Positions 1 to 55,885 of a DNA stretch of 64,000 nucleotides are shown one piece after another (the stretch's first letter is position 1; each line of letters starts with the position of its first letter). The notes beneath the pieces were generated by a model. It did no database searches. It was not told the origin of the DNA and worked only from the letters and a program-made list of their open reading frames with translations. Origin of the DNA: Halomonas sp. 'Soap Lake #6' (GTDB taxonomy: Bacteria > Pseudomonadota > Gammaproteobacteria > Pseudomonadales > Halomonadaceae); assembly GCF_003031405.1 (NCBI RefSeq), contig NZ_CP020469.1, forward strand, positions 1,488,001-1,552,000, read 5' to 3'. A program made the translations under genes and the position numbers.

Positions 1-194
1 TACAATAGTTACGGATTGGCTACACAACACACACACTCTGGCACTGTGCCAAATCTTAAGCAGATTACCTAAATATTTACAGAAATATATTATTATACTT
101 ATCAATGACTTGCTTGAATTACGCCAAAAAGGGTGTTTTTAGAATTTTGTACTTATCTCGTTGATGCCTATATTTAAACTGCTAACTAGGTCTA

Positions 195-338
195 GTAAAC
201 CGCCGAATAGGCAGCTGAAAAAATGCACTATGCCGTCATAGAAGATAATGACTTGTGAACCGCCGAATAGGCAGCTGATATTAGGACTGGAAGCCAGCAA
301 CGGTAATGATACACACCGCCGCAAGGCAGTATTGGTTC
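195..338 (+). CRISPR. Degenerate type I-F-like CRISPR mini-array, no cas genes
   Basis: Two 28-bp copies lie exactly 60 bp apart (195-222 and 255-282). They share the core CCGCCgaataGGCAGctga and are separated by a 32-bp spacer (223-254). A third, weaker copy follows at 311-338 with the core CCGCCgcaaGGCAG. A 28-bp repeat with a 32-bp spacer and a GTGAAC start is the type I-F format. From memory the GTGAAC...GCTGAT form resembles repeats of I-F3 (Tn7-like, CRISPR-associated transposon) arrays more than those of standalone I-F systems, which begin GTTCAC. The hairpin stem carries a C-A mismatch and the repeat ends differ, so the array is probably decayed or a specialised mini-array. No cas gene is in the window. 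Upstream sequence (1-194) is AT-rich and leader-like, without a gene. Confidence 0.62.
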
Positions 339-1307: not shown

Positions 1308-1444
1308 TTATGTCATTTAAAAGTGGAAAACTTATGTCATTTTGCGGTGGAATTCTTGGTGTAAGTGACTGTTTTTTCGTTTAGGTTATGTCAAGTTGAA
1401 GTGGAAACGACATTTCTAGTCGTTTCCTTCTTAATTTGACATAA
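1308..1444. repeat. Four 24-bp repeats, transposon-end-like
   Basis: The unit TTATGTCA-N7-GTGGAA occurs at 1308 and 1332 (head to tail, 24 bp apart) and at 1386. A fourth, diverged copy faces inward from 1444 on the opposite strand. Copies three and four form an inverted repeat around the perfect 9-bp palindrome GGAAACGAC/GTCGTTTCC. Several spaced copies of a roughly 20-bp transposase site starting TGT are typical of IS21-family and Tn7-like ends. No transposase gene is nearby, so this would be a remnant or a transposase-less element. The family is not resolved. Confidence 0.45.
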
Positions 1445-2726: not shown

Positions 2727-3119
2727 ATGGTGATCGTTCATAGTGTAGAGCTGAATAATTACATTGTTGAAGCGATTAACTCTTTGCAGCAAGCTTGGCT
2801 AAGCAATGAGTCGATAGGCGTGGGTAAGCAACGTAGTCATCTATTTTCACTTCCCTTGGGAGGTGAATTGGTTAAAATCTGCATCTGCTGTGCGGAAGAG
2901 GCTGTGCCGGTTCATTACGAAGCTGAGAATGGTTGCCGCGATGGAGAGAATTACCAGTGTAGCTTTAAGATTTTACTATTTCCCATCATGAATCTATCAG
3001 GAATAGCTACACATTTACTCTACATGGTTTTAAGCCCTAGTAGGCAAGCTATACGCAGATTGCTAAATACTCCGAGCAAGAACGGGAGCGCCGTGTCATG
3101 GAACGCACCGCCGAATTAG
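2727..3119 (+). CDS. Hypothetical protein, possibly part of a broken sensor gene
   Basis: A 130-residue frame with no recognisable domain and no clear ribosome-binding site. It overlaps the start of the GGDEF remnant in another frame. Its last 20 or so residues (from about SRQAIRR) lie over sequence that in the +1 frame reads as coiled-coil linker into GGDEF. It may be the N-terminal sensory half of the diguanylate cyclase, separated by a frameshift near 3040. An independent gene cannot be excluded. Confidence 0.3.
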   Translation: MVIVHSVELNNYIVEAINSLQQAWLSNESIGVGKQRSHLFSLPLGGELVKICICCAEEAVPVHYEAENGCRDGENYQCSFKILLFPIMNLSGIATHLLYMVLSPSRQAIRRLLNTPSKNGSAVSWNAPPN

Positions 3120-3621
3120 TGGCTACGAATTTGCAACTGTCCTCTCTAGCCACCCATGATCATCTTACTGAAATGCATAATCGGCATCATGTCCTTGAGC
3201 TGGCCAGCACTGAGTTCCATCGGGTTTCCCGTTATGGTCTGTCGATTTGCGTGATGATGCTGGACATTGACCACTTCAAGTCGATTAATGATGGACACGC
3301 GGCAGGTATCAGGCCCTAAAGACTGTTGCGCATGGAGTATGAACGACAGTTCGCGACTGCGATTTGGTAGGGCGATATGGCGGCGGCGAATTCATAATCG
3401 TATTACCCGAAACGGGTATTGAGGGCGCTTATGTGATTGCCGAGCGATTGAGTAGGACGCTGCAAAGCTCCAGACTTTCCATCAGCATTGGCATCGCCTC
3501 GTTTGATCGAAATGATCAGAAAATTGATGACTTAATCAAACGCGCTGATCATCTGTTATTGAATGCCAAGCGGAACGGCTGTAGTCGAATCGAATGCGCT
3601 TCTCTTGTATCGGCCCCTTGA
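3044..3621 (+). pseudogene. Frameshifted GGDEF (diguanylate cyclase) gene
   Basis: The frame opening at 3044 encodes a charged linker (EQERERRVMERTAELV), then THDHLTEMHNRHH and MLDIDHFKSINDGHAAG, the standard first half of a GGDEF domain. A one-base loss near 3307 shifts the frame to a stop at 3317. The other frame then continues as QALKTVAHGV, meets TGA at 3340-3342, and resumes with DLVGRYGGGEFIIVLPETG and SISIGIASF. The catalytic signature is GGGEF instead of GGDEF/GGEEF. About 15 residues usually found between the AERL helix and SIGIA are missing. Frameshift, nonsense codon, altered motif and deletion together mean it cannot make a normal cyclase. Confidence 0.85.
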
Positions 3622-5633: not shown

Positions 5634-6032
5634 ATGCAAACAGCAAACGATATTTCCCAAAACAGGGCGGCTGCTGCTGCAGGCTTAAAAGCGGCGGTAC
5701 GCATTCTGGATAAATGGCGAGCATCTGGCGAGCAGGGCGAAGCGATTTTGCGCGTTTCGCATAGCACCTATGCACGTGCTCGGCGGGGAGATCTGGCTGA
5801 AATCAAGTTGGATGGGGACCAGCTTACCCGGATCAGCTACTTGCTTAATATCCACGCTACGCTACGGATGATATTTGATAACCCTGAAAATCTTTATGGG
5901 TTCGTCAACATGGTTAACCAAAACCCCTACTTTAATGGCCGCACGCCGCTAGAAATCATGGGGTCTGGAGATTTTGCGGCGCTTTATGAAACCTTTAAGC
6001 GTATTGACAGCCTGCGGGGAAGTCAGTGGTAA
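5634..6032 (+). CDS. Xre/MbcA-type antitoxin of a RES toxin pair
   Basis: A 132-residue antitoxin. The N-terminal half carries a helical DNA-binding region (GEAILRVSHSTYARARRG). The C-terminal half has the ParS/MbcA toxin-binding module (LNIHATLRMIFDN, then NPYFNGRTPLEIM). It blocks the NAD-degrading activity of the RES toxin and, by family precedent, represses its own operon. It precedes the toxin with a short overlap (toxin GTG at 6026, antitoxin stop at 6030-6032), which implies translational coupling. It is only distantly similar to the orphan antitoxin at 464-934. Confidence 0.85.
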   Translation: MQTANDISQNRAAAAAGLKAAVRILDKWRASGEQGEAILRVSHSTYARARRGDLAEIKLDGDQLTRISYLLNIHATLRMIFDNPENLYGFVNMVNQNPYFNGRTPLEIMGSGDFAALYETFKRIDSLRGSQW

Positions 6033-6721
6033 GGGCTGCTGATTTGCCGACGTTGTCAGCTGGGAAAGTTACCGGTTATCGCTTGGTTAACAGTAAATTC
6101 CCACCTATTGACCTGTTCGATGATGTGGCGGACGCAGAAGAATTTGCCGCACTTCATGCATTGCAGGCATTAACGAATCCACGTTTACAAAATGAAGTCG
6201 GAAACTTAGCGCTGTTGCCAACGGAGCAAATTCCTTTTGGAATTCGTGGCTGCTCTTATGCGGTTGCTCCCTTTACGCATGTGAACCCACAGGGGTCGCG
6301 CTTTAGTGACGGCGGTTTTGGTGTGCTCTATTTTGCCGATACGTTTGAAACTGCCATTGCTGAAGTAAAGCATCACCAGCAGGTGTATTGGCAAAATGTC
6401 CCCGGTTTGCACTACGAGCGGTTTGTGTTTCGCGGCTTAAAAAGCACTTTCAATGAAGATGGCTTTTACGATGCGCTCACTTTACCCATTGAGCATGCTA
6501 TTTATGCACCCGATGATTACTCTATCTCGCAGCCATTTGGTGCTGAGGTCCGTCAATCTCTGGGTGGGTTGCGCTACCATTCTGTTCGTAAGCAGGGCGC
6601 AAGCTGTTGGGCGCTTACTACGCCAAGTGGTGTGGCTGACATCATCCAAACCACCCACTTGGAAATGATTTGGAACGGTGCTATCACCCAGGTAAACCAT
6701 CTGCGCTTTTCCCGACGATGA
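6026..6721 (+). CDS. RES-domain toxin (MbcT-like NAD-depleting)
   Basis: A 231-residue RES-domain protein. The core spans about residues 70-215: GSRFSDGGFGVLYFADTFET with Arg92 and Tyr102, and Glu113 in the next helix, the residues that name the fold's active site. Family members are NAD glycohydrolases or phosphorylases that cause growth arrest. It starts with GTG at 6026 inside the end of the antitoxin gene. No truncation is seen, so the pair looks functional. Confidence 0.87.
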   Translation: MVRAADLPTLSAGKVTGYRLVNSKFPPIDLFDDVADAEEFAALHALQALTNPRLQNEVGNLALLPTEQIPFGIRGCSYAVAPFTHVNPQGSRFSDGGFGVLYFADTFETAIAEVKHHQQVYWQNVPGLHYERFVFRGLKSTFNEDGFYDALTLPIEHAIYAPDDYSISQPFGAEVRQSLGGLRYHSVRKQGASCWALTTPSGVADIIQTTHLEMIWNGAITQVNHLRFSRR

Positions 6722-6733
6722 TGATAGGCGAGA

Positions 6734-7210
6734 TTAGCTATTCTGCTGCTCGGTAAAGCGCTGCATGATAGCAAGAGTTTCATCGCTTACGTGATGTTCC
6801 ATGCCTTCTGCGTCAATGCGCGCAGTGCTGTCATTAACGCCCAAAGCACGCAAAAAATGCAGCACGACATCGTGGCGCGCTCGAGAGGTTTCCGCCATTT
6901 TCTGCCCCTCTTCCGTTAGAAACAGAGAGCGGTAAGGCTTACTGGTAACTAAGCCCAGATCATTTAAGCGGCGAATCATTTTCGATACTGTCGCTTGGCT
7001 GACAGCCATTCGACTGGCGATATCCGCCGCGCGGGCTTCTCCGCGATGGCGCAGTAGGTCGCCAATCAACTCAACATAATCTTCGATTAGCTCAGTTTCA
7101 TGGGCATTACGCACCGTTTCATATTGCCTGGCATGCTGCTCCAAGGGAGGAAGTGCATCGCCGCTGAGGCTAGGTGGAGAAGAAACGCGCTGCTGTTCGT
7201 GATCACTCAT
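6734..7210 (-). CDS. mntR: Manganese-responsive regulator MntR
   Basis: A DtxR-family repressor of 158 residues. A winged HTH occupies about 45-105 (RAADIASRMAVSQATVSKMI), followed by the metal-binding/dimerisation helices (RHDVVLHFLRALGV, EGMEHHVSDETL). With Mn(II) it represses Mn uptake genes. It stands divergent from the ABC importer at 7364-10051, the expected target. The ATG at 7210 is preferred over an in-frame TTG at 7216. An extended, low-complexity N-terminus of about 25 residues precedes the HTH. Confidence 0.85.
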   Translation of the reverse strand: MSDHEQQRVSSPPSLSGDALPPLEQHARQYETVRNAHETELIEDYVELIGDLLRHRGEARAADIASRMAVSQATVSKMIRRLNDLGLVTSKPYRSLFLTEEGQKMAETSRARHDVVLHFLRALGVNDSTARIDAEGMEHHVSDETLAIMQRFTEQQNS

Positions 7211-7276
7211 TGGCAAATTTTATCAAGGTTAGTGGAAACGTTGATTGGTGATAGTAGCTTATTTTTGTGCATAATT

Positions 7277-7293
7277 GTTAGCCAAGGCTAAAC
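7277..7293. promoter_or_regulatory. Candidate MntR operator
   Basis: A perfect palindrome TTAGCCAAGGCTAA (7278-7291) lies in the 153-bp intergenic region between mntR and the importer. Position, symmetry and half-site AGCC/GGCT are consistent with a DtxR/MntR box. It could serve both divergent promoters. Confidence 0.55.
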
Positions 7294-7363
7294 TGTTTGC
7301 GCAAAGCTTTTTTATTGAGCTAAAGTAATAGTGAATCGAATCCTAGCATAGTGGAGGTAAGTA

Positions 7364-8278
7364 ATGACCAAGCATTGTATGTGGATAGTGTTGGGCGCGT
7401 CCTTGGCCTGGGGGAGCAGTAGTGCTCAGGCAGATGAGCTACTCGAGTCGCCGATTAGCGTTGCCGTTACCTTTTCTGTGCTAGGAGACTTGGTCGAGAA
7501 AGTAGCGGGTGATGATGCGCGAGTAACCGTGTTAACGCCTGTTAATGCTGAAGTGCATGAGTGGGAGCTAACGCCTGATAATTTTGCGGCTCTAGAGAAT
7601 GCTGACCTGGTTTTTTACAACGGCTATCAGCTTGAGCAGTGGATGCGTCAAGTAGAGGCAACGGTGAGCGACAGCGTTCCAGTGATTGCTGTGGCGGAAG
7701 CATCGGGCTACCCGACTAAGTCCATTGTGACAGGGGAAATGGAAGGCGATGTAGATCCTCATTTATGGATGGATCCCCGTGCTGCCGCCGCTTATGTGCA
7801 AGTGATTGCGAATGCTATAGAGGATTTGCTACCGCACCAGGCAGAAGCGATTCAGCAGCGTGCCGTATCGCTCAAAGAACAGTTGCATGAGTTGCATGTC
7901 GAACTGCAAGAAGCGCTAGAGGTGATTCCTGAAGAGCGGAGAGTGCTGCTTTCAAGCGAAGCTGCCTTTCTTTACTTCGCTGATGCTTTCCACTTCGAGC
8001 ATGATGGTATTTGGGGCACCAACGCTGAAACAGAAGGCTCTCCACGCCAGTTGATGCGCATCATTGATATTATTAATGAGCGTCAACCGGCTGCGCTATT
8101 TTGGGAAAGCACCATTTCTGACCGATATGTGTCCAGTGTCGCGCGTGACACTGGTTTGCCGGTTGCCGGGCCGCTCTATGTTGACTCATTAAGCGAGCCA
8201 TCTGGGGAAGCGGGTGACTATTTTGCGATGCTGCGTCATAACGTAGAGTTACTGCGCAGCCACCTTGTTGTTGAGTAA
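7364..8278 (+). CDS. Mn/Zn ABC transporter substrate-binding protein
   Basis: A 304-residue cluster A-I (TroA/MntC/ZnuA type) metal-binding lipo- or periplasmic protein. A Sec signal covers about 1-23. Metal ligands are visible: His65 in AEVHEWELTP, the His of DPHLWMD at about 132, a Glu in the central linker and an Asp near the end. There is no His-rich loop of the ZnuA kind, which favours Mn. Start ATG 7364 follows GGAGG. It is the first gene of a three-gene operon facing mntR. Confidence 0.85.
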   Translation: MTKHCMWIVLGASLAWGSSSAQADELLESPISVAVTFSVLGDLVEKVAGDDARVTVLTPVNAEVHEWELTPDNFAALENADLVFYNGYQLEQWMRQVEATVSDSVPVIAVAEASGYPTKSIVTGEMEGDVDPHLWMDPRAAAAYVQVIANAIEDLLPHQAEAIQQRAVSLKEQLHELHVELQEALEVIPEERRVLLSSEAAFLYFADAFHFEHDGIWGTNAETEGSPRQLMRIIDIINERQPAALFWESTISDRYVSSVARDTGLPVAGPLYVDSLSEPSGEAGDYFAMLRHNVELLRSHLVVE

Positions 8279-8284
8279 ATCATC

Positions 8285-9109
8285 ATGAAGCCCCTGTGTG
8301 AGAGTGCCCCGGCTGCCATTGATATTACGAATCTTTATGCCGCTTATCATCGTCAGCCGGTGTTAGAAAATATCAACCTATCGTTCCCTGCGGGAAAGTG
8401 GACGGCTATCGTGGGGCCTAATGGGGCTGGTAAGTCGACGCTTTTTCATGTGCTAACGGGCGGAATGTCGCCTCTACGTGGCCGTGTGGAAGCGTTTGGG
8501 GAGCCAATTGCGACTCATAGGAAGGCCGGTAACATTGCCTATATGGCGCAGAGAGAAGCCATTGAGTGGGATTTTCCTATCTCTGTATGGGAAACTGTCA
8601 TGGGGGGGCGCTATGGGCATATGCGCCACGACCCCTTATGGCGGCGGCTCCTACCTGCCCGTTGGTATGCGGCTAACCACCGGGACGCAGTGCACAAGGC
8701 GCTAGAGGACGTTAACATGCTGGCTCTGGCGGATCGTCCCATCGGTGCACTTTCCGGAGGGCAAAAAAAGCGTGTGCTTTTGGCCCGCGCCCTGGCTCAG
8801 CAGGCGAAAATTCTACTGCTAGATGAGCCGCTGGCAGGTGTGGATCCACCGAGTGAACAGCTGATCCTGGATGTTTTAAAGCGTGAGCGGGCTTCGGGTC
8901 GCACCGTCATTATGGTGACCCATGATATGCCTGGTGCACGTCGCTATGTTGATCATGTTGTATTAATCAATCGGTTCGTACGAGGCTCCGGCTTGCCCGA
9001 GGAAATGCTGAGCACTACTAGGCTAGCTGAACTAGCAGTGAGCGCGATTGAGCAAACGAATACTGACCAAGCGCTTCGCTCCAGTGCTTTTGCGTTAAGG
9101 CAAGGATAA
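8285..9109 (+). CDS. Mn/Zn ABC transporter ATP-binding protein
   Basis: A 274-residue ABC ATPase that powers metal import. Walker A is GPNGAGKST (about 44), the Q-loop is in MAQREAIEWDFP, the signature is LSGGQKKRV, Walker B is ILLLDEP, and the switch His is in MVTHD. The ZnuC/MntA-like features are complete. It starts six bases after the binding protein and ends three bases before the permease, so the three are co-transcribed. Confidence 0.9.
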   Translation: MKPLCESAPAAIDITNLYAAYHRQPVLENINLSFPAGKWTAIVGPNGAGKSTLFHVLTGGMSPLRGRVEAFGEPIATHRKAGNIAYMAQREAIEWDFPISVWETVMGGRYGHMRHDPLWRRLLPARWYAANHRDAVHKALEDVNMLALADRPIGALSGGQKKRVLLARALAQQAKILLLDEPLAGVDPPSEQLILDVLKRERASGRTVIMVTHDMPGARRYVDHVVLINRFVRGSGLPEEMLSTTRLAELAVSAIEQTNTDQALRSSAFALRQG

Positions 9110-9112
9110 GGC

Positions 9113-10051
9113 ATGACCGAGATGTTGATGGGCCTAGAGGTCTTTAGTGATGCATTGGTCAGCGGTTTAATCGCTGCGCTGATGCTGCTGGTAAACTTGC
9201 TTCCCGAAGAGATATCGAAGCCATTCCAATATGCATTTATGCAGCGGGCGCTACTGACTTCTATCATGGTTGGTGCTATCTGCGGCATGCTTTCGTGTTA
9301 CGTCGTATTAAAACGGTGGTCGTTATTGGGCGATGCTATTTCCCACGCCGTGTTACCTGGCGTTGCGTTGGCGTACTTATTAGGGCTGCCTTTTTTTATC
9401 GGCGCTTTTGTCACTGGGGCATTAACATCGCTGGGTATTGGTGCCATTGAGCGTCATACGCGGATCAAATCCGATGCGGCGATGGGGATTATGTTCACTG
9501 GAGCATTTGCGCTTGGCATTGTGCTAATTAGTAAAATTGCCTCTAGCACCCATTTAATGCATATCCTGTTTGGGAATGTGCTGGGCGTACAGCAGTCTGC
9601 GCTGTTGTTAACACTGGCGGCCAGTGTAGTGGCGCTGTTGGTGGTGTGGCTCGCATTTAGGCCGTTGATGCTATACGCGTTCGACCCTACTCAGGCACAG
9701 GCACTTGGCTTTAATACCGGCGTTATTCATTACGGTTTGATTCTTCTGCTCACATTAACCATTGTGGCGAGCCTGGAAACCGTCGGTATCATCCTGGTAG
9801 TGGCGATGCTGATTACGCCGGGTGCCACTGCCCATCTGCTAACAGATCGCTTTAAAACCATGCTGCTACTGTCGATGGGCGTTGGGGTAGGATCGGCAGT
9901 GCTAGGTTTGTACCTCTCGTTTGCGTTTGATGTAGCTTCTGGCGGTACCATCGTACTGGTGGCGACAAGCTGTTTCTTTATGGCACTACTCTTTTCACCT
10001 AAGCACGGTGTGCTAATGCGTTTATGGCGCCACCGCCAAGTTGAGGGGTGA
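9113..10051 (+). CDS. Mn/Zn ABC transporter permease
   Basis: An ABC-3 family inner-membrane permease of 312 residues with about eight hydrophobic helices. Family features include GAICGMLSCYVVLKRWSLLG near the start and GDAISHAVLPGVALAY, the conserved cytoplasmic loop that contacts the ATPase. The N-terminal 35 residues add an amphipathic extension. It is the last gene of the mntR-facing operon. Confidence 0.9.
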   Translation: MTEMLMGLEVFSDALVSGLIAALMLLVNLLPEEISKPFQYAFMQRALLTSIMVGAICGMLSCYVVLKRWSLLGDAISHAVLPGVALAYLLGLPFFIGAFVTGALTSLGIGAIERHTRIKSDAAMGIMFTGAFALGIVLISKIASSTHLMHILFGNVLGVQQSALLLTLAASVVALLVVWLAFRPLMLYAFDPTQAQALGFNTGVIHYGLILLLTLTIVASLETVGIILVVAMLITPGATAHLLTDRFKTMLLLSMGVGVGSAVLGLYLSFAFDVASGGTIVLVATSCFFMALLFSPKHGVLMRLWRHRQVEG

Positions 10052-15066: not shown

Positions 15067-16461
15067 TTAGAAGCTACCGAACAGAGTTCCCAGAGTAATA
15101 ACACTAAGCAGCGCCGCTATGGGAAGCACAATCGTTACCATGGCTAAATTTCCATAGGATTGTCGATGCGTTAAGCCACAGATGGCAAGTAGGGTGATAA
15201 CGGCGCCGGAATGGGGGAGGGTGTCCATGCCCCCTGCTGATAGTGTCGCAACCCGGTGCATCAACTCTGGGCTAATGCCCGCCTGTTCGGCCATCGCTAA
15301 ATATTCACTGCCCAACGTTTCTAAAGCAATGGACAGCCCGCCCGAGGATGAGCCGGTAATACCTGCCAAAACGCTCATTGCCAGTGCCTCTGAAACTAGA
15401 GGGTTGCTTGGCGAGACATTTAGCACGGCATCGCGAATAATCACGAACCCGGCAAGGCTTGCTATTACTGCTCCGTATCCCACTTCGGATGCGGTATTGA
15501 AAATAGGTAATAGCGAACCAAAGCAGCCTTTATTAATCGTCTCTTTAAGGTTTTTCCAACGACGCCAGTGGCTAATGATCAGCCAAGCGGAAGCGCTAAG
15601 TAGGGCGATTAAAATAGCCCAAAGCCCTGTTTGCCTGCTAGGCGTGACATTTTCAAAAGTGTCACTAATGAAGCTGAGATCCATAGCGGGAAAAACACCA
15701 TAGGTGAATAGCGCGTTAAGGCCGATCACCATTACCAGAGGAATTAACGCCATGGCTAAAGGCATGCTGGGTGCTTTTTCAGCCTCGTCGTTTGTTTCTG
15801 CTTCTCTTTCGGTATGTGTGCCGTAGCCCTCGCCGTTAGCTGCTGCCTTTTTGACGCGGGATTGCAGGTAATAAATACCTAGGCCCAGCATTATTAAGCC
15901 AGCAATGATCCCTAGGCCGGGTGCCGCAAAACTGTTGGTGCCAAAGTAGGGGATGGGGATCGCATTCTGAATAGCAGGCGTGCCTGGTAGTGCTGTCATG
16001 GTAAATGTAAACGAACCGAGAGCAATGGAGGCAGGGATTAATCGCTTCGGAACGTTAGCTTGGCGAAACAGCTCACGGCTAATCGGGTAAATTGCAAATG
16101 CAACGACAAACAGTGATACCCCGCCATAGGTAAGTACCGCGCAGGCTATTACCACAGTTAGCACCACATGATGGGTCCCTAAGCGTTTAACAATGCCGCT
16201 TGAGATGGATTGGGCAGCGCCTGAATCTGCCATCAGCTGACCAAATAGCGCGCCGAGTAAGAATAGGGGAAAGAACTGGATGACGTAGTTGCCTAGGGCT
16301 TTCATAAATGTATCGGTATAGATGGGAAGCAAAAAAGCAGCATCTCCCGATAGTAGTACCGCCAGAGAGGCCATCAACGGTGCTAAAAGCAGAACCGAGA
16401 TGCCTTTGTAGGCTAAAAACATCAGCAGAAGTAATGAAACAATGATCGCGAGCATGCCCAT
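15067..16461 (-). CDS. GntP family permease
   Basis: A 464-residue inner-membrane carrier with about 12 helices. Family features include FFPLFLLGALFGQLM, VCGGV-like LTYGGVSLFVV, LPGTPAIQNAIP and GITGSSSGGLSIALE. GntP members import gluconate, hydroxy acids or keto acids with protons, and the substrate cannot be read from sequence. It is divergent from the NhaC-like antiporter, sharing a 207-bp spacer. Confidence 0.83.
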   Translation of the reverse strand: MGMLAIIVSLLLLMFLAYKGISVLLLAPLMASLAVLLSGDAAFLLPIYTDTFMKALGNYVIQFFPLFLLGALFGQLMADSGAAQSISSGIVKRLGTHHVVLTVVIACAVLTYGGVSLFVVAFAIYPISRELFRQANVPKRLIPASIALGSFTFTMTALPGTPAIQNAIPIPYFGTNSFAAPGLGIIAGLIMLGLGIYYLQSRVKKAAANGEGYGTHTEREAETNDEAEKAPSMPLAMALIPLVMVIGLNALFTYGVFPAMDLSFISDTFENVTPSRQTGLWAILIALLSASAWLIISHWRRWKNLKETINKGCFGSLLPIFNTASEVGYGAVIASLAGFVIIRDAVLNVSPSNPLVSEALAMSVLAGITGSSSGGLSIALETLGSEYLAMAEQAGISPELMHRVATLSAGGMDTLPHSGAVITLLAICGLTHRQSYGNLAMVTIVLPIAALLSVITLGTLFGSF

Positions 16462-16668
16462 ACAGGCTCCTAAGTGGTTTTGTATAAAACCTAAATTAGC
16501 GGATGTTGAAAATAATCAAGGCGTGAATAGTAGGGAGCATGTTGCAAAGCAGCAATGGGGTTGAGACTAAAGTGTTATGCCCTATCTTTAGCCTGCTTAA
16601 GTGTGTTCCATCTGTTAAAATTCGCTACTTTCAGCGGTATCGACCTTCTAATAGCTCTGGGTATATCC

Positions 16669-18015
16669 ATGAATGCAGTAATTATTGCAGTGCTGGTAAT
16701 GGTGGCGCTGTCGCTTTTGCGCGTGTCTGTTGTGTTTGCGCTAGTAGTAGGGGCGCTGGTAGGTGGTTTGGTGGGTGGTCTGTCGCTTGATGAAACACTC
16801 AGTGCTTTCAATGATGGTGTGGGAGGTGGTGCGCAGGTGGCGCTGGCCTATGCAACGTTAGGCGCTTTCGCGGTTGCTATTTCTCGTTCGGGGTTGCCCG
16901 ATATGTTGGCCAACCGGCTAATTACTATGCTTGGTAAAGAGGCGTCAGCGGTTCATCAGGCACGAGTGAAAATGGCTTTACTGGCAGCAGTGCTGTTAGT
17001 GGCGATCTCCTCACAAAATGCGATTCCAGTGCACATTGCCTTTATTCCTGTACTGATCCCTCCTCTGCTTGCGGTTATGAACCGACTTCAGCTTGACCGC
17101 CGGGCTGTTGCCTGTGCGCTCACCTTCGGTTTAACGGCACCCTATATGCTATTACCAGTAGGGTTTGGTGCGATTTTTTTGAACGATATTTTGCTGGCCA
17201 ATTTAAATAGTGCGGGCGAGCCTCTGGGTTTGGAAATCACCCGGGGAATGGTGCCGATGGCGATGGCGATACCGGTTGGGGGGATGGCGATTGGTTTGTT
17301 CGTTGCGCTGTTGTTTAGTTACCGGGGGCGGCGCGAGTACGCCAGTAAAGACTTGGTGGCTAGCAGCCACCAGCAGGCGCCGGTACCTGCCAAGCCTCAC
17401 ACGCTGGGACTGGTGATGACGGGTGTCGCTATTGTGGCGGCGCTTGGTTTACAGCTGTATACAGGTTCGATGATCCTCGGGGGGTTAGTGGGGATTGGTT
17501 TGCTATCGTTAGGCGGTATTTTTAGGTGGCGAGAGGCGGATGACCTGTTCACCAGTGGTATGCGTATGATGGCGTTGATTGGCTTTATTATGATTTCAGC
17601 GGCGGGCTTTGCAGAAGTAATGAAAGCAACGGGGGATATTGAGTCGCTGGTGTCTGGGGCCTTTGAGATATTTGGCGATAACCGTGGCTTAGCCGCTATG
17701 GTAATGCTGTTAGTGGGGCTGTTTATTACCCTAGGCATTGGCTCATCTTTTTCGACAATTCCTATTATTGCTGCCATTTTTGTACCGCTGGCTGTGCAGT
17801 TTGGTTTTTCACCTATGGCTACTGTTGTGCTGGTGGGCACGGCGGCAGCGCTTGGTGATGCAGGTTCGCCAGCGTCTGATTCAACTCTTGGGCCAACCTC
17901 GGGATTGAACGTGGATGGGCAGCACGATCATATGTGGGACAGCGTGGTGCCGACCTTCTTACACTATAATGTACCGTTAATAGCTTTTGGCTGGCTGGCG
18001 GCGATGACACTGTAA
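16669..18015 (+). CDS. Na+/H+ antiporter family protein (NhaC/YuiF-like)
   Basis: A hydrophobic transporter of 448 residues from the ATG at 16669. An earlier in-frame ATG (16555) would add 38 poorly hydrophobic residues and has no ribosome-binding site. Features: [40 protein letters not shown], and [19 protein letters not shown] near the end, all typical of the YuiF/NhaC-like group. Likely function is Na+ export or amino-acid/Na+ antiport, fitting a halophile. Confidence 0.8.
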
Positions 18016-18036
18016 TTGTTTGTTGGAGGTATGCGC

Positions 18037-18070
18037 AGAAGGGCAGCCAATGGCTGCCCTTCTTTGTTTT
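18037..18070. terminator. Strong bidirectional terminator
   Basis: A near-perfect stem of 12-13 bp (AGAAGGGCAGCCA / TGGCTGCCCTTCT) followed by TTGTTTT. It separates the NhaC-like gene from convergent trmJ and can serve both. Confidence 0.85.
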
Positions 18071-18083
18071 CTACGATTAACAT

Positions 18084-18818
18084 TTACGACTCGGGTAGGT
18101 GCGACTCAAAGGCGCTGAGCAAACCACGCAGCAGGGAAAGCTCCTTACGGCTTGGCTGGGCGCGGGAGAATAGCGCTTGAAGCTGCTCCTCTGTGCGTGC
18201 GTGGGGCTGAGTCAGAAAGCCGCTTTGCTGCATTAAACGCCCGAGGTGCTCCTGGAAGTATATAAACTGCTCGCGGCTAGGAGGGGTGGCTTCCAGCGGG
18301 CGTTGGTAGGCAAAGTCGTTACCATCGCGTTTGCGCCAGGCGCGATGTACTTCATAGGCTAAAATCTGTACCGCCTGGGACAGGTTGAGGATGCCATATT
18401 CAGGATTAGCAGGAATACTCACCTGGTGAGTGCAGCAGCGTATTTCATCGTTGGTTAGCCCTGATCGTTCGCGGCCAAATACCAAGGCGACCGGCGCGTG
18501 GACAGCATTCTCAATCACTTGCTGGGCCATTTCGTCAGGCTCATCGAAGTGCGGTAACGGTAAGCTGCGTAGCCGTGCACTGGCACCCACTACTTGAACA
18601 CAGTCACTTACGGCTTCTTCAAGTGTGCTCACGCAGCGGGCATTTTCCAGCACATCCGTCGCGCCTGCTGCAAGGCGAGTGGCTTCTTCGTCGGGAAAGG
18701 TACGGGGGTTGACCAGAACTAGTTCGGTTAAGCCCATGGTTTTCATTGCCCGGGCAGCAGCGCCAATGTTGCCAGGATGGAAGGTTTGCACCAACACGAT
18801 GCGGATATTAGAAAGCAC
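18084..18818 (-). CDS. trmJ: tRNA (Cm/Um32) methyltransferase TrmJ
   Basis: A SPOUT-class methyltransferase of 244 residues. Motif 1 is HPGNIGAAARAMKTMGL; the knot motifs are ALVFGRERSGLTNDE and IPANPEYGILNLSQAVQILAYE. It 2'-O-methylates position 32 of several tRNAs using SAM. A helical C-terminal tail (from about 170) is usual for TrmJ. It is a single gene. Confidence 0.92.
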   Translation of the reverse strand: MLSNIRIVLVQTFHPGNIGAAARAMKTMGLTELVLVNPRTFPDEEATRLAAGATDVLENARCVSTLEEAVSDCVQVVGASARLRSLPLPHFDEPDEMAQQVIENAVHAPVALVFGRERSGLTNDEIRCCTHQVSIPANPEYGILNLSQAVQILAYEVHRAWRKRDGNDFAYQRPLEATPPSREQFIYFQEHLGRLMQQSGFLTQPHARTEEQLQALFSRAQPSRKELSLLRGLLSAFESHLPES

Positions 18819-18920
18819 GGTAATGAAGACCTAGAAGCTGCCGATAAAGGCGCTGATGGTAGCATGCTTTTACGGAATGAGAAGAGGTGAGTAAATGGCG
18901 GCTGTTGGTCAAATAATATA

Positions 18921-18949
18921 AAAGAACCCCGCACGTGGCGGGGTTCTTT
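18921..18949 (-). terminator. groESL terminator
   Basis: A perfect 12-bp stem (AAAGAACCCCGC / GCGGGGTTCTTT) with a 5-nt loop lies 39 bp past the groEL stop and gives a T-run on the minus strand. Confidence 0.88.
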
Positions 18950-18987
18950 AAGACGTTAAACGTCAGAGCGATAGGCTCAGGGGTGCA

Positions 18988-20643
<1,656 letters not shown>

Positions 20644-54827: not shown

Positions 54828-55885
54828 TGAGGGTACTTTTACTATCTGCCTATGAAGCGGTTAGCCACCGTTACTGGGCGCAAAGCCTAATGGCAGAGCT
54901 TGATGAGCTATCCTGGACGTTATTAACCCTACCACCGCGCCACTTTGCGTGGCGGATTCGCGGTAACCCGCTGAGCTGGTGGCTGAAAGAGCATGAAACC
55001 CTCAGCCAGCCCTATGATGTCGTGTTGGCTACCTCAATGGTGGATATTGCCACACTCGTTGGATTATTTCCCCAACTAGGGCGGGCCAGGAAAGTCGTTT
55101 ATTTTCACGAAAACCAGTTTGCCTACCCGGAGTCCAGCGAGCAGATGCCCCAGGTAGAGGCCAAGATGGTCAATCTTTATGCAGCACTTGCAGCGGATAC
55201 GCTAGTGTTTAATACAGCCTATAACCGGGACTCCTTTTTTGAAGGCGCACGCCAGTTTCTAAAAAAAATGCCAGAGAATTTGCCTGTCGCCAAGCCGTTA
55301 GAAGAGCTGCGCCAGCGGGCAAAAGTACTCCCAGTACCAATAATGCCACTAGACAACGCTTCCCAGACGAATGCAAACCCGCGTCGTATTATTTGGAACC
55401 ACCGTTGGGAGTACGATAAAAATCCAGAAGACTTTTTTGCAGCACTGTTCAAGCTAAGTGAGCAGCGAGTGCCGTTTGAGCTGGCGGTACTTGGCCAGCG
55501 CTTTCGTGATGTGCCGCCGATTTTTGCCGAGGCTGAACGACGTCTTGCCGAACAGACGATTAGCTGGGGGCCGCAGCCAGAGGTGGAGTATCGTTCACTG
55601 CTTAATGGTGGTGGCATTGTGGTCTCCACCACTTGGCACGAGTTTCAAGGGTTGGCAATTATGGAGGCCGCCCAGCGTGGTGCGTTACCGCTTGTGCCAG
55701 ATAGGCTCTGTTTCCCGGCGCTATACACCGAGCATTACCGCTATGACGGTACACCAGAAGGGCTTTATCAACGGTTGCATACTTGGCTAACAAAACCTGA
55801 TTGCCAGCCGCCACTGGTTGATACTCAGCAGTGGCAGTGGCCACAGTGGCGTAATGCTTATCGCAAGCTGCTTGCCGAAAGCTAA
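54827..55885 (+). CDS. tRNA-queuosine alpha-mannosyltransferase (QTMAN, DUF3524)
   Basis: 352 residues, GT-B glycosyltransferase. The N-terminal DUF3524 half has LLSAYEAVSHRYWAQSL, VVLATSMVDIATLVGLFP and VYFHENQFAYP. The C-terminal half has IIWNHRWEYDKNPEDFFAAL and STTWHEFQGLAIMEAAQRG. Likely mannosylates queuosine in tRNA-Asp. Translationally coupled to the ArsA-type ATPase. Confidence 0.83.
   Translation: MRVLLLSAYEAVSHRYWAQSLMAELDELSWTLLTLPPRHFAWRIRGNPLSWWLKEHETLSQPYDVVLATSMVDIATLVGLFPQLGRARKVVYFHENQFAYPESSEQMPQVEAKMVNLYAALAADTLVFNTAYNRDSFFEGARQFLKKMPENLPVAKPLEELRQRAKVLPVPIMPLDNASQTNANPRRIIWNHRWEYDKNPEDFFAALFKLSEQRVPFELAVLGQRFRDVPPIFAEAERRLAEQTISWGPQPEVEYRSLLNGGGIVVSTTWHEFQGLAIMEAAQRGALPLVPDRLCFPALYTEHYRYDGTPEGLYQRLHTWLTKPDCQPPLVDTQQWQWPQWRNAYRKLLAES

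Follow-up and report, generated by a model that had tools for sequence, protein, structure and literature searches.

A short CRISPR array at bases 195 to 338 of a 64,000 nt stretch of the Halomonas sp. 'Soap Lake #6' genome (G000:C1:1488001-1552000, referred to as a whole as the window; genome size 4.80 Mb) raises the question of whether it is a solitary guide RNA unit, the residue of a lost transposon, or a part of a complete element that continues beyond the window. Two 28 bp repeats on the plus strand, GTAAACCGCCGAATAGGCAGCTGAAAAA at 195-222 and GTGAACCGCCGAATAGGCAGCTGATATT at 255-282, follow each other at a spacing of exactly 60 bp and enclose a 32 nt spacer (spacer 1, an ordinary 32 nt guide, plus strand, 223-254), as a first-pass annotation of this DNA had described. 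The diverged third repeat that it listed is also real: an atypical repeat lies at 311-338 on the plus strand, with a linker (311-315) and a stem-loop with a GCAA loop (316-329, CCGCCGCAAGGCAG), and its stem begins 56 rather than 60 bases after that of repeat 2. The last 8 nt of a type I-F repeat are expected to form the 5' handle of the next guide, and bases 275-282 at the end of repeat 2 are accordingly the expected 5' handle of the second guide, which has an effective length of 28 nt (283-310, plus strand) and matches ffs, the SRP RNA gene. Folding places a terminator-like hairpin, which closes the array, at 342-365 of the same strand. A 19 nt core of the repeat with three or fewer mismatches was present in two copies in the window and in none of 100 shuffles, and a 24 nt repeat pattern at the same threshold found these two sites alone in the whole 4.80 Mb genome; a looser pattern with five or fewer mismatches added one lone match at window position 54963. 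Since the pattern is confined to two genomic sites, an ordinary dispersed repeat, the possibility that the annotation had raised against its own reading, was rejected.

The annotation had called the array Cas-less and reported no cas genes in the window, a misleading statement, since the last 72 bases of cas6 are in the window (window 1-72) and its left edge is closely flanked by the other cas genes and the tns genes; cas6 is separated from the start of the array by 122 bp, and the apparent isolation of the array is an artefact of the window edge. Looking left for tniQ-cas8-cas7-cas6 and tnsABC, as had been proposed, recovered all of these genes. Their order is tnsA-tnsB-tnsC, a C.Csp231I-like Xre gene, BREX cargo and tniQ-cas8/5-cas7-cas6, with tnsA, tnsB and tnsC at L004:6363-6986, 6995-8890 and 8890-9909, and with tniQ (L003:15095-16342), a fused cas8/5 (16302-18407), cas7 (18418-19467) and cas6/csy4 (from 19464) in L003, the 20 kb left of the window; the whole of cas6, on the plus strand, is at L006:2464-3072 and starts at G000:C1:1487464. 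All seven tns, tniQ and cas genes are open reading frames. The families found over cut-off were TnsA, Mu-transpos_C, TniB, TniQ, Csy2, Csy3 and Csy4; the TniQ_IF model scored 522 bits, and cas6 scored 83.9 bits with TIGR02563 (cut-off 36.25) and was also recognized by PF09618. Cas6 matches the solved chains 9gs9, 30ga and 7u5d, the nearest solved relatives of TniQ, Cas6 and Cas8/5 are I-F3 CAST proteins (7u5d, 9gs9/30ga), and TnsB matches PseTnsAB and Tn6677 TnsB. As in I-F3 CASTs, tnsA, tnsB, tnsC and tniQ lie together in one element, and fused cas8/5, cas7 and cas6 are found in that element without cas1 and cas2/3. The same Cas6/Csy4 and Csy3 families serve type I-F1, and the array could on that ground be assigned to an ordinary type I-F1 defence system; however, the fused Cas8/5 is closest to CAST Cas8/5 and is preceded by TniQ, the cas1 and cas2/3 that accompany the effector genes of I-F1 systems are missing here, a genome-wide scan with the I-F Cas3 model gave no hit, and the sole Cas1 found in the genome is of type I-C, at 4.44 Mb, which together make an I-F1 assignment exceedingly improbable. 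The type I-C genes belong to a separate CRISPR system (L093, G000:C1:4434000-4450000), with a Cas1c model over cut-off and a long array in which a 24 nt piece of the repeat was counted 74 times in the 16 kb stretch.

The genes and the array are enclosed by two transposon ends. The outer sequences are TGTCGTTTCC, at L004:6255, and GGAAACGACA, ending at window 1412, giving an element of 35,158 bp (G000:C1:1454255-1489412). Its array-side end (1308-1412, plus strand) contains three TnsB-site-like repeats (1308-1331, 1332-1355 and 1386-1409), which TnsB would be expected to bind, and the unstranded 5 bp target-site duplication TTTCT is found at window 1413-1417 and, left of the tnsA-side end, at L004:6250-6254; such ends and duplications are again those of an I-F3 CAST. 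Homology to related stretches ends at 1415-1425 in five of eight cases (L007, L010, L026, L027 and L028); it ends earlier in the other three (L008 at 1129, L009 at 363 and L029 at 370), which counts against this boundary. The annotation had offered two further readings, the remains of a transposon or a functional solitary guide RNA unit. An orphan or decayed CAST remnant, in which only the array has survived the loss of its transposon, is what the window suggests with its 72 bases of cas6, but the tns, tniQ and cas genes are open and in order and both ends and the duplication are present, and the neighbouring sequence already refutes a remnant, which we consider very improbable; a solitary unit does not fit an array that sits inside a complete CAST. 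The nearest tniQ matches in named records are from Halomonas alkaliantarctica and Vreelandella species.

Several features place the element in subtype I-F3b. The ffs gene (L004:6144-6240, Rfam RF00169, 71.5 bits) is just outside the tnsA-side end, its Rfam match stopping 14 bases before the element starts, and ffs or rsmJ attachment with a homing guide is characteristic of I-F3b, as is the atypical repeat next to that guide. The Xre gene downstream of tnsC (L004:10055-10372, 105 aa) matches the Csp231I C protein (3lfp, E value 1.3e-20), and the Xre regulators of Shewanella I-F3 CASTs are reported to cluster with C.Csp231I, marking the I-F3b subtype (PMC12452197); by analogy this gene is likely the RtbC regulator. 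A second gene inside the element, a solitary Xre/MbcA/ParS-type antitoxin-like gene of 168 aa on the minus strand (464-970; PF09722, PF20432 and TIGR02293 over cut-off, NF049845 just below), had been considered for RtbC and was dropped once the C.Csp231I-like gene was found. The neighbouring reading frames showed no RES toxin; an Xre-RES pair exists outside the element, at window 5634-6721. The cargo includes brxA, brxB, brxC, pglZ and brxL together with a pglX-like gene, whose C-terminal 501 residues, the part that was scanned, scored slightly higher with a type IIG model.

The gene set and its order, both ends, the duplication, the neighbouring ffs, and the homing guide and its conservation can all be read from the sequence, and on that basis we are highly confident that the CRISPR array at 195-338 belongs to a complete type I-F3b CAST of 35,158 bp that is probably mobile, a confidence that does not extend to the short guide and five-Cas7 step discussed below. 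The annotation had thus been correct in its I-F3 reading of the repeat sequence and layout, and in its idea that such arrays finish with an atypical repeat.

The second guide matches ffs at L004:6182-6209 with PAM CC and 22 of 28 bases, and none of 5000 letter-shuffled guides did as well in the 150 bp flank; treated as a 32-mer it matches at 22 of 32, which one of 5000 shuffled guides equalled in the same flank, and the 4 guide bases past position 28 do not match ffs. Of its six mismatches in 28, three (6, 12 and 24) fall at every-sixth positions, and three (4, 13 and 27) elsewhere. Every-sixth guide positions are reported to be flipped out of pairing, and mismatches between atypical guides and their att sites to be common (PMC12774636). 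The count alone is not unique, in that a second 32-mer within 124 kb also reaches 22/32; it is the place, the PAM and the conservation, rather than the number of matches, that make the case for ffs as the predicted target.

A tniQ match was found in 14 of 275 family genomes, nine of them, the window's included, in this genus. In all nine genus CASTs found in this way the last guide and the atypical repeat are kept with small changes, and the other spacers vary in number and sequence between arrays, with the exception of L008 and L009, which share theirs. Since the genus elements are related, the nine do not count as nine independent events. The loop of the last repeat is a four-base GNRA-type loop (GCAA or GTAA) in the window (316-329), in L007-L009 and in L026-L031, ordinary repeats having a five-base loop; the five-base loop is kept in the last repeats of L010, L032 and L033. 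I-F3b attachment sites are ffs and rsmJ, and diverged repeats mark atypical guides that only I-F3 CASTs use well (PMC11406308). Taken with that report, the ffs site, the conserved last guide and the diverged repeat point to the array of an ordinary I-F3b CAST, and these comparisons identify the second guide, which ends at the diverged third repeat, as a private homing guide to ffs. Following published CAST biology, each stem would be a Cas6 cleavage site in the transcript, the guide lying between repeat 2 and its atypical successor would load TniQ-Cascade, which would bind ffs, and the bound complex would direct TnsABC insertion just beyond the ffs target. Spacer 1 would, on the same published grounds, be an ordinary guide against mobile DNA. 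Searched with three or fewer mismatches against 275 family genomes it found itself only; among phages the best match came from an unrelated one and covered 19 of 32 bases (E value 0.3), and there were no matches in plasmids, nor in viral contigs with one loosened pattern.

The DNA beyond the array-side end of the CAST also differs between relatives. In relatives without a tniQ match the DNA shortly after ffs aligns to the window from 4648 (L043), 4707 (L050) or, more weakly, 4848 (L048), and the resumption of alignment at about 4648 implies that, past the CAST, window 1418 to approximately 4647 consists of additional inserted or variable DNA. This segment contains split GGDEF reading frames (3098-3319 and 3364-3621) and, at 1419-1444, an end-like inverted copy facing the CAST end, and it may be what is left of an earlier insertion at ffs. 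The AGTC that follows the right-hand duplication was considered as part of the end of such an older element and rejected, since the empty site of L043 also reads TTTCTAGTC there; only the stretch after AGTC, to 1444, therefore stays suggestive. Tn7-like-looking ends at the same place by ffs also occur in L036, L038, L055 and L057, from genomes without a tniQ match, and suggest that in this genus many elements attach at ffs.

The element is thus of a known kind, and the new detail, relative to the literature searched, is a short homing guide combined with an inward shift of insertion. The ordinary stem-to-stem interval is 45 nt (8 of handle, 32 of guide and 5 of linker) in all 24 intervals counted in the nine genus arrays, where the pattern missed the ordinary interval of L029; L034 (G158), which has another repeat type, is outside the interval count. 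The interval holding the ffs homing guide is 41 nt in eight of the nine and 39 nt in one, corresponding to effective guides of 28 or 26 nt, so that from 5' handle to 3' stem the homing guide is 4 nt shorter than normal, and 6 nt shorter in one relative. Elsewhere the last-guide intervals were 45, 45, 44 and 44 nt in four other family CASTs, 45 in two Aeromonas elements, 47 in Photobacterium and 45 in Vibrio. A search for ffs-homed CASTs outside the family gave a tniQ match in one of 369 class genomes (itself) and five of 390 order genomes (itself included); of the four other order stretches, three (L088, L090 and L091) had arrays, with intervals of 44-46 nt, and no array was seen in L089. TniQ relatives were not found in viral contigs, nor cas7 DNA in E. 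coli genomes. No statement on short ffs guides was found in the literature searched, and the founding I-F3b work may contain one.

Counted from the first protospacer base, insertion lies at 73 in five of the nine genus genomes and at 72 in four. In four of the nine (G207, G213, G233 and G242) the sequence of the ffs-side end is not that of the window's element, and this end may come from a different element stacked there. VchCAST is reported to insert mostly 49 bp past its 32 bp target, with a range of 46-52 (PMC11702153, PMC10201428), equivalent to 78-84 from the first protospacer base. The usual I-F3 geometry of a 32 nt homing guide and insertion 46-52 bp past the target was not found here: insertion is 40-41 bp past the 32 nt frame in the genus (41 in the window's element), or 45 bp past the 28 nt frame.

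One tentative explanation, which we regard as possible and rather less than probable, is guide-length tuning by natural CASTs, in which the private homing guide of this lineage has been shortened by 4-6 nt, the effector holds five Cas7 copies, insertion moves inward by about 8 bp, and the short guide adds a second layer of privacy. In type I-F1 the Cas7 copy number is set by the relation L = 6N - 4, or 26 nt for N = 5 (PMC7296934), and by this relation a guide of 26-28 nt should hold five. A homing guide 4 nt short between handle and stem would then assemble an effector with five rather than six Cas7, its R-loop would end approximately 6 bp earlier, and insertion would be expected at 72-78; the observed 72-73 is at the edge of this range and outside the usual 78-84. 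In I-F1, Cas2/3 degradation no longer took place when the R-loop was 6 bp shorter (PMC7296934), and it follows that such a guide should be unable to make another CRISPR system cut ffs; it would be useless for I-F1 cutting at this essential gene and may thereby stay harmless where type I-F1 systems are present. In a 32 nt I-F3a system, transposition is abolished by PAM-distal mismatches at positions 25-29 (PMC12774636), which suggests that a merely mismatched guide should fail while one that physically ends earlier might work; the present guide is still mismatched at 27. Against tuning, the nine elements have a common ancestry, and the shift in insertion (8 bp) is twice the shortening of the guide (4 nt). 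That disproportion also speaks for a different account, to which we give somewhat less than an even chance, in which something other than guide length sets the 72-73 bp offset, such as a preference of the transposase for certain local sequences or a constraint imposed by the ffs site, the short guide then being incidental. In VchCAST, local sequence shifts insertion within the 46-52 bp range (PMC10201428), and the other Tn7-like ends described above occupy the same place in genomes without a tniQ match. However, 40-41 bp past the 32 nt frame is outside that published range, and the two family relatives whose targets were found insert within it: one (G145) has a 32 nt guide to comEC (24/32, PAM CA, offset 81, 49 bp past the 32 nt frame), and the other (G091) a 31 nt guide to an oxidoreductase gene (24/32, PAM CC, offset 80, 48 bp past). 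The short homing guide offers a natural experiment on the way in which a CAST gauges how far from its target to insert, and on how a guide to an essential gene is kept from misuse by other CRISPR systems; if guide length acts as an adjustable ruler, genome engineering could profit from it.

The I-F3 CASTs of the family outside this group (G145, G146, G091 and G110) resemble the present element in having a TniQ, of 42-43% identity, and after it an array whose last repeat is atypical, and differ in their last guides, which are 32, 32, 31 and 31 nt long and shorter here. For G146 and G110 the guide pattern found only the array itself. The homing guide of G145 (target L072, G145:C4:158349-158380) matches the comEC codons that specify SGTTHLVVISGLHVGL, presumably ComEC's conserved motif. 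The element interrupts the comEC frame (L031:4314-5846), splitting the Competence domain into positions 1-47 and 51-268, and comEC is thus a gene-disrupting homing site; the outer 5 bp are CGCGG and CGCGC, one base different, and comEC was not mentioned among the matches listed in the literature search. For the G091 CAST the homing target lies in the 5' part of a 3-hydroxyisobutyrate-dehydrogenase-like gene (L075, G091:C1:2408744-2408775), and insertion is just upstream of this gene; ATGGA precedes the element, and a directed search found it again past the array, where it follows an ACA.

Among known systems, the I-F3b element of Aeromonas salmonicida S44 plasmid pS44-1 (L066), which we take to be AsCAST/Tn6900, has the same order, tnsA-tnsB-tnsC-xre-tniQ-cas8/5-cas7-cas6-array, and its last guide opens with the same AGGACTGGAAG. 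It differs in its TniQ (45% identical), in its cargo, and in a last guide of the full 32 nt (45 nt stem interval) in contrast to 28 nt here. The att site of AsCAST is given as ffs (PMC12774636), and the PAM at ffs is mostly TC in the literature, whereas it is CC here. The Shewanella rsmJ CASTs described in PMC12452197 are likewise I-F3b with a C.Csp231I-clustered Xre regulator but use a different attachment site. BREX (BrxC) is listed among the cargo of Tn7-like elements (PMC8649781), and in the present element BREX rides a CAST at ffs.
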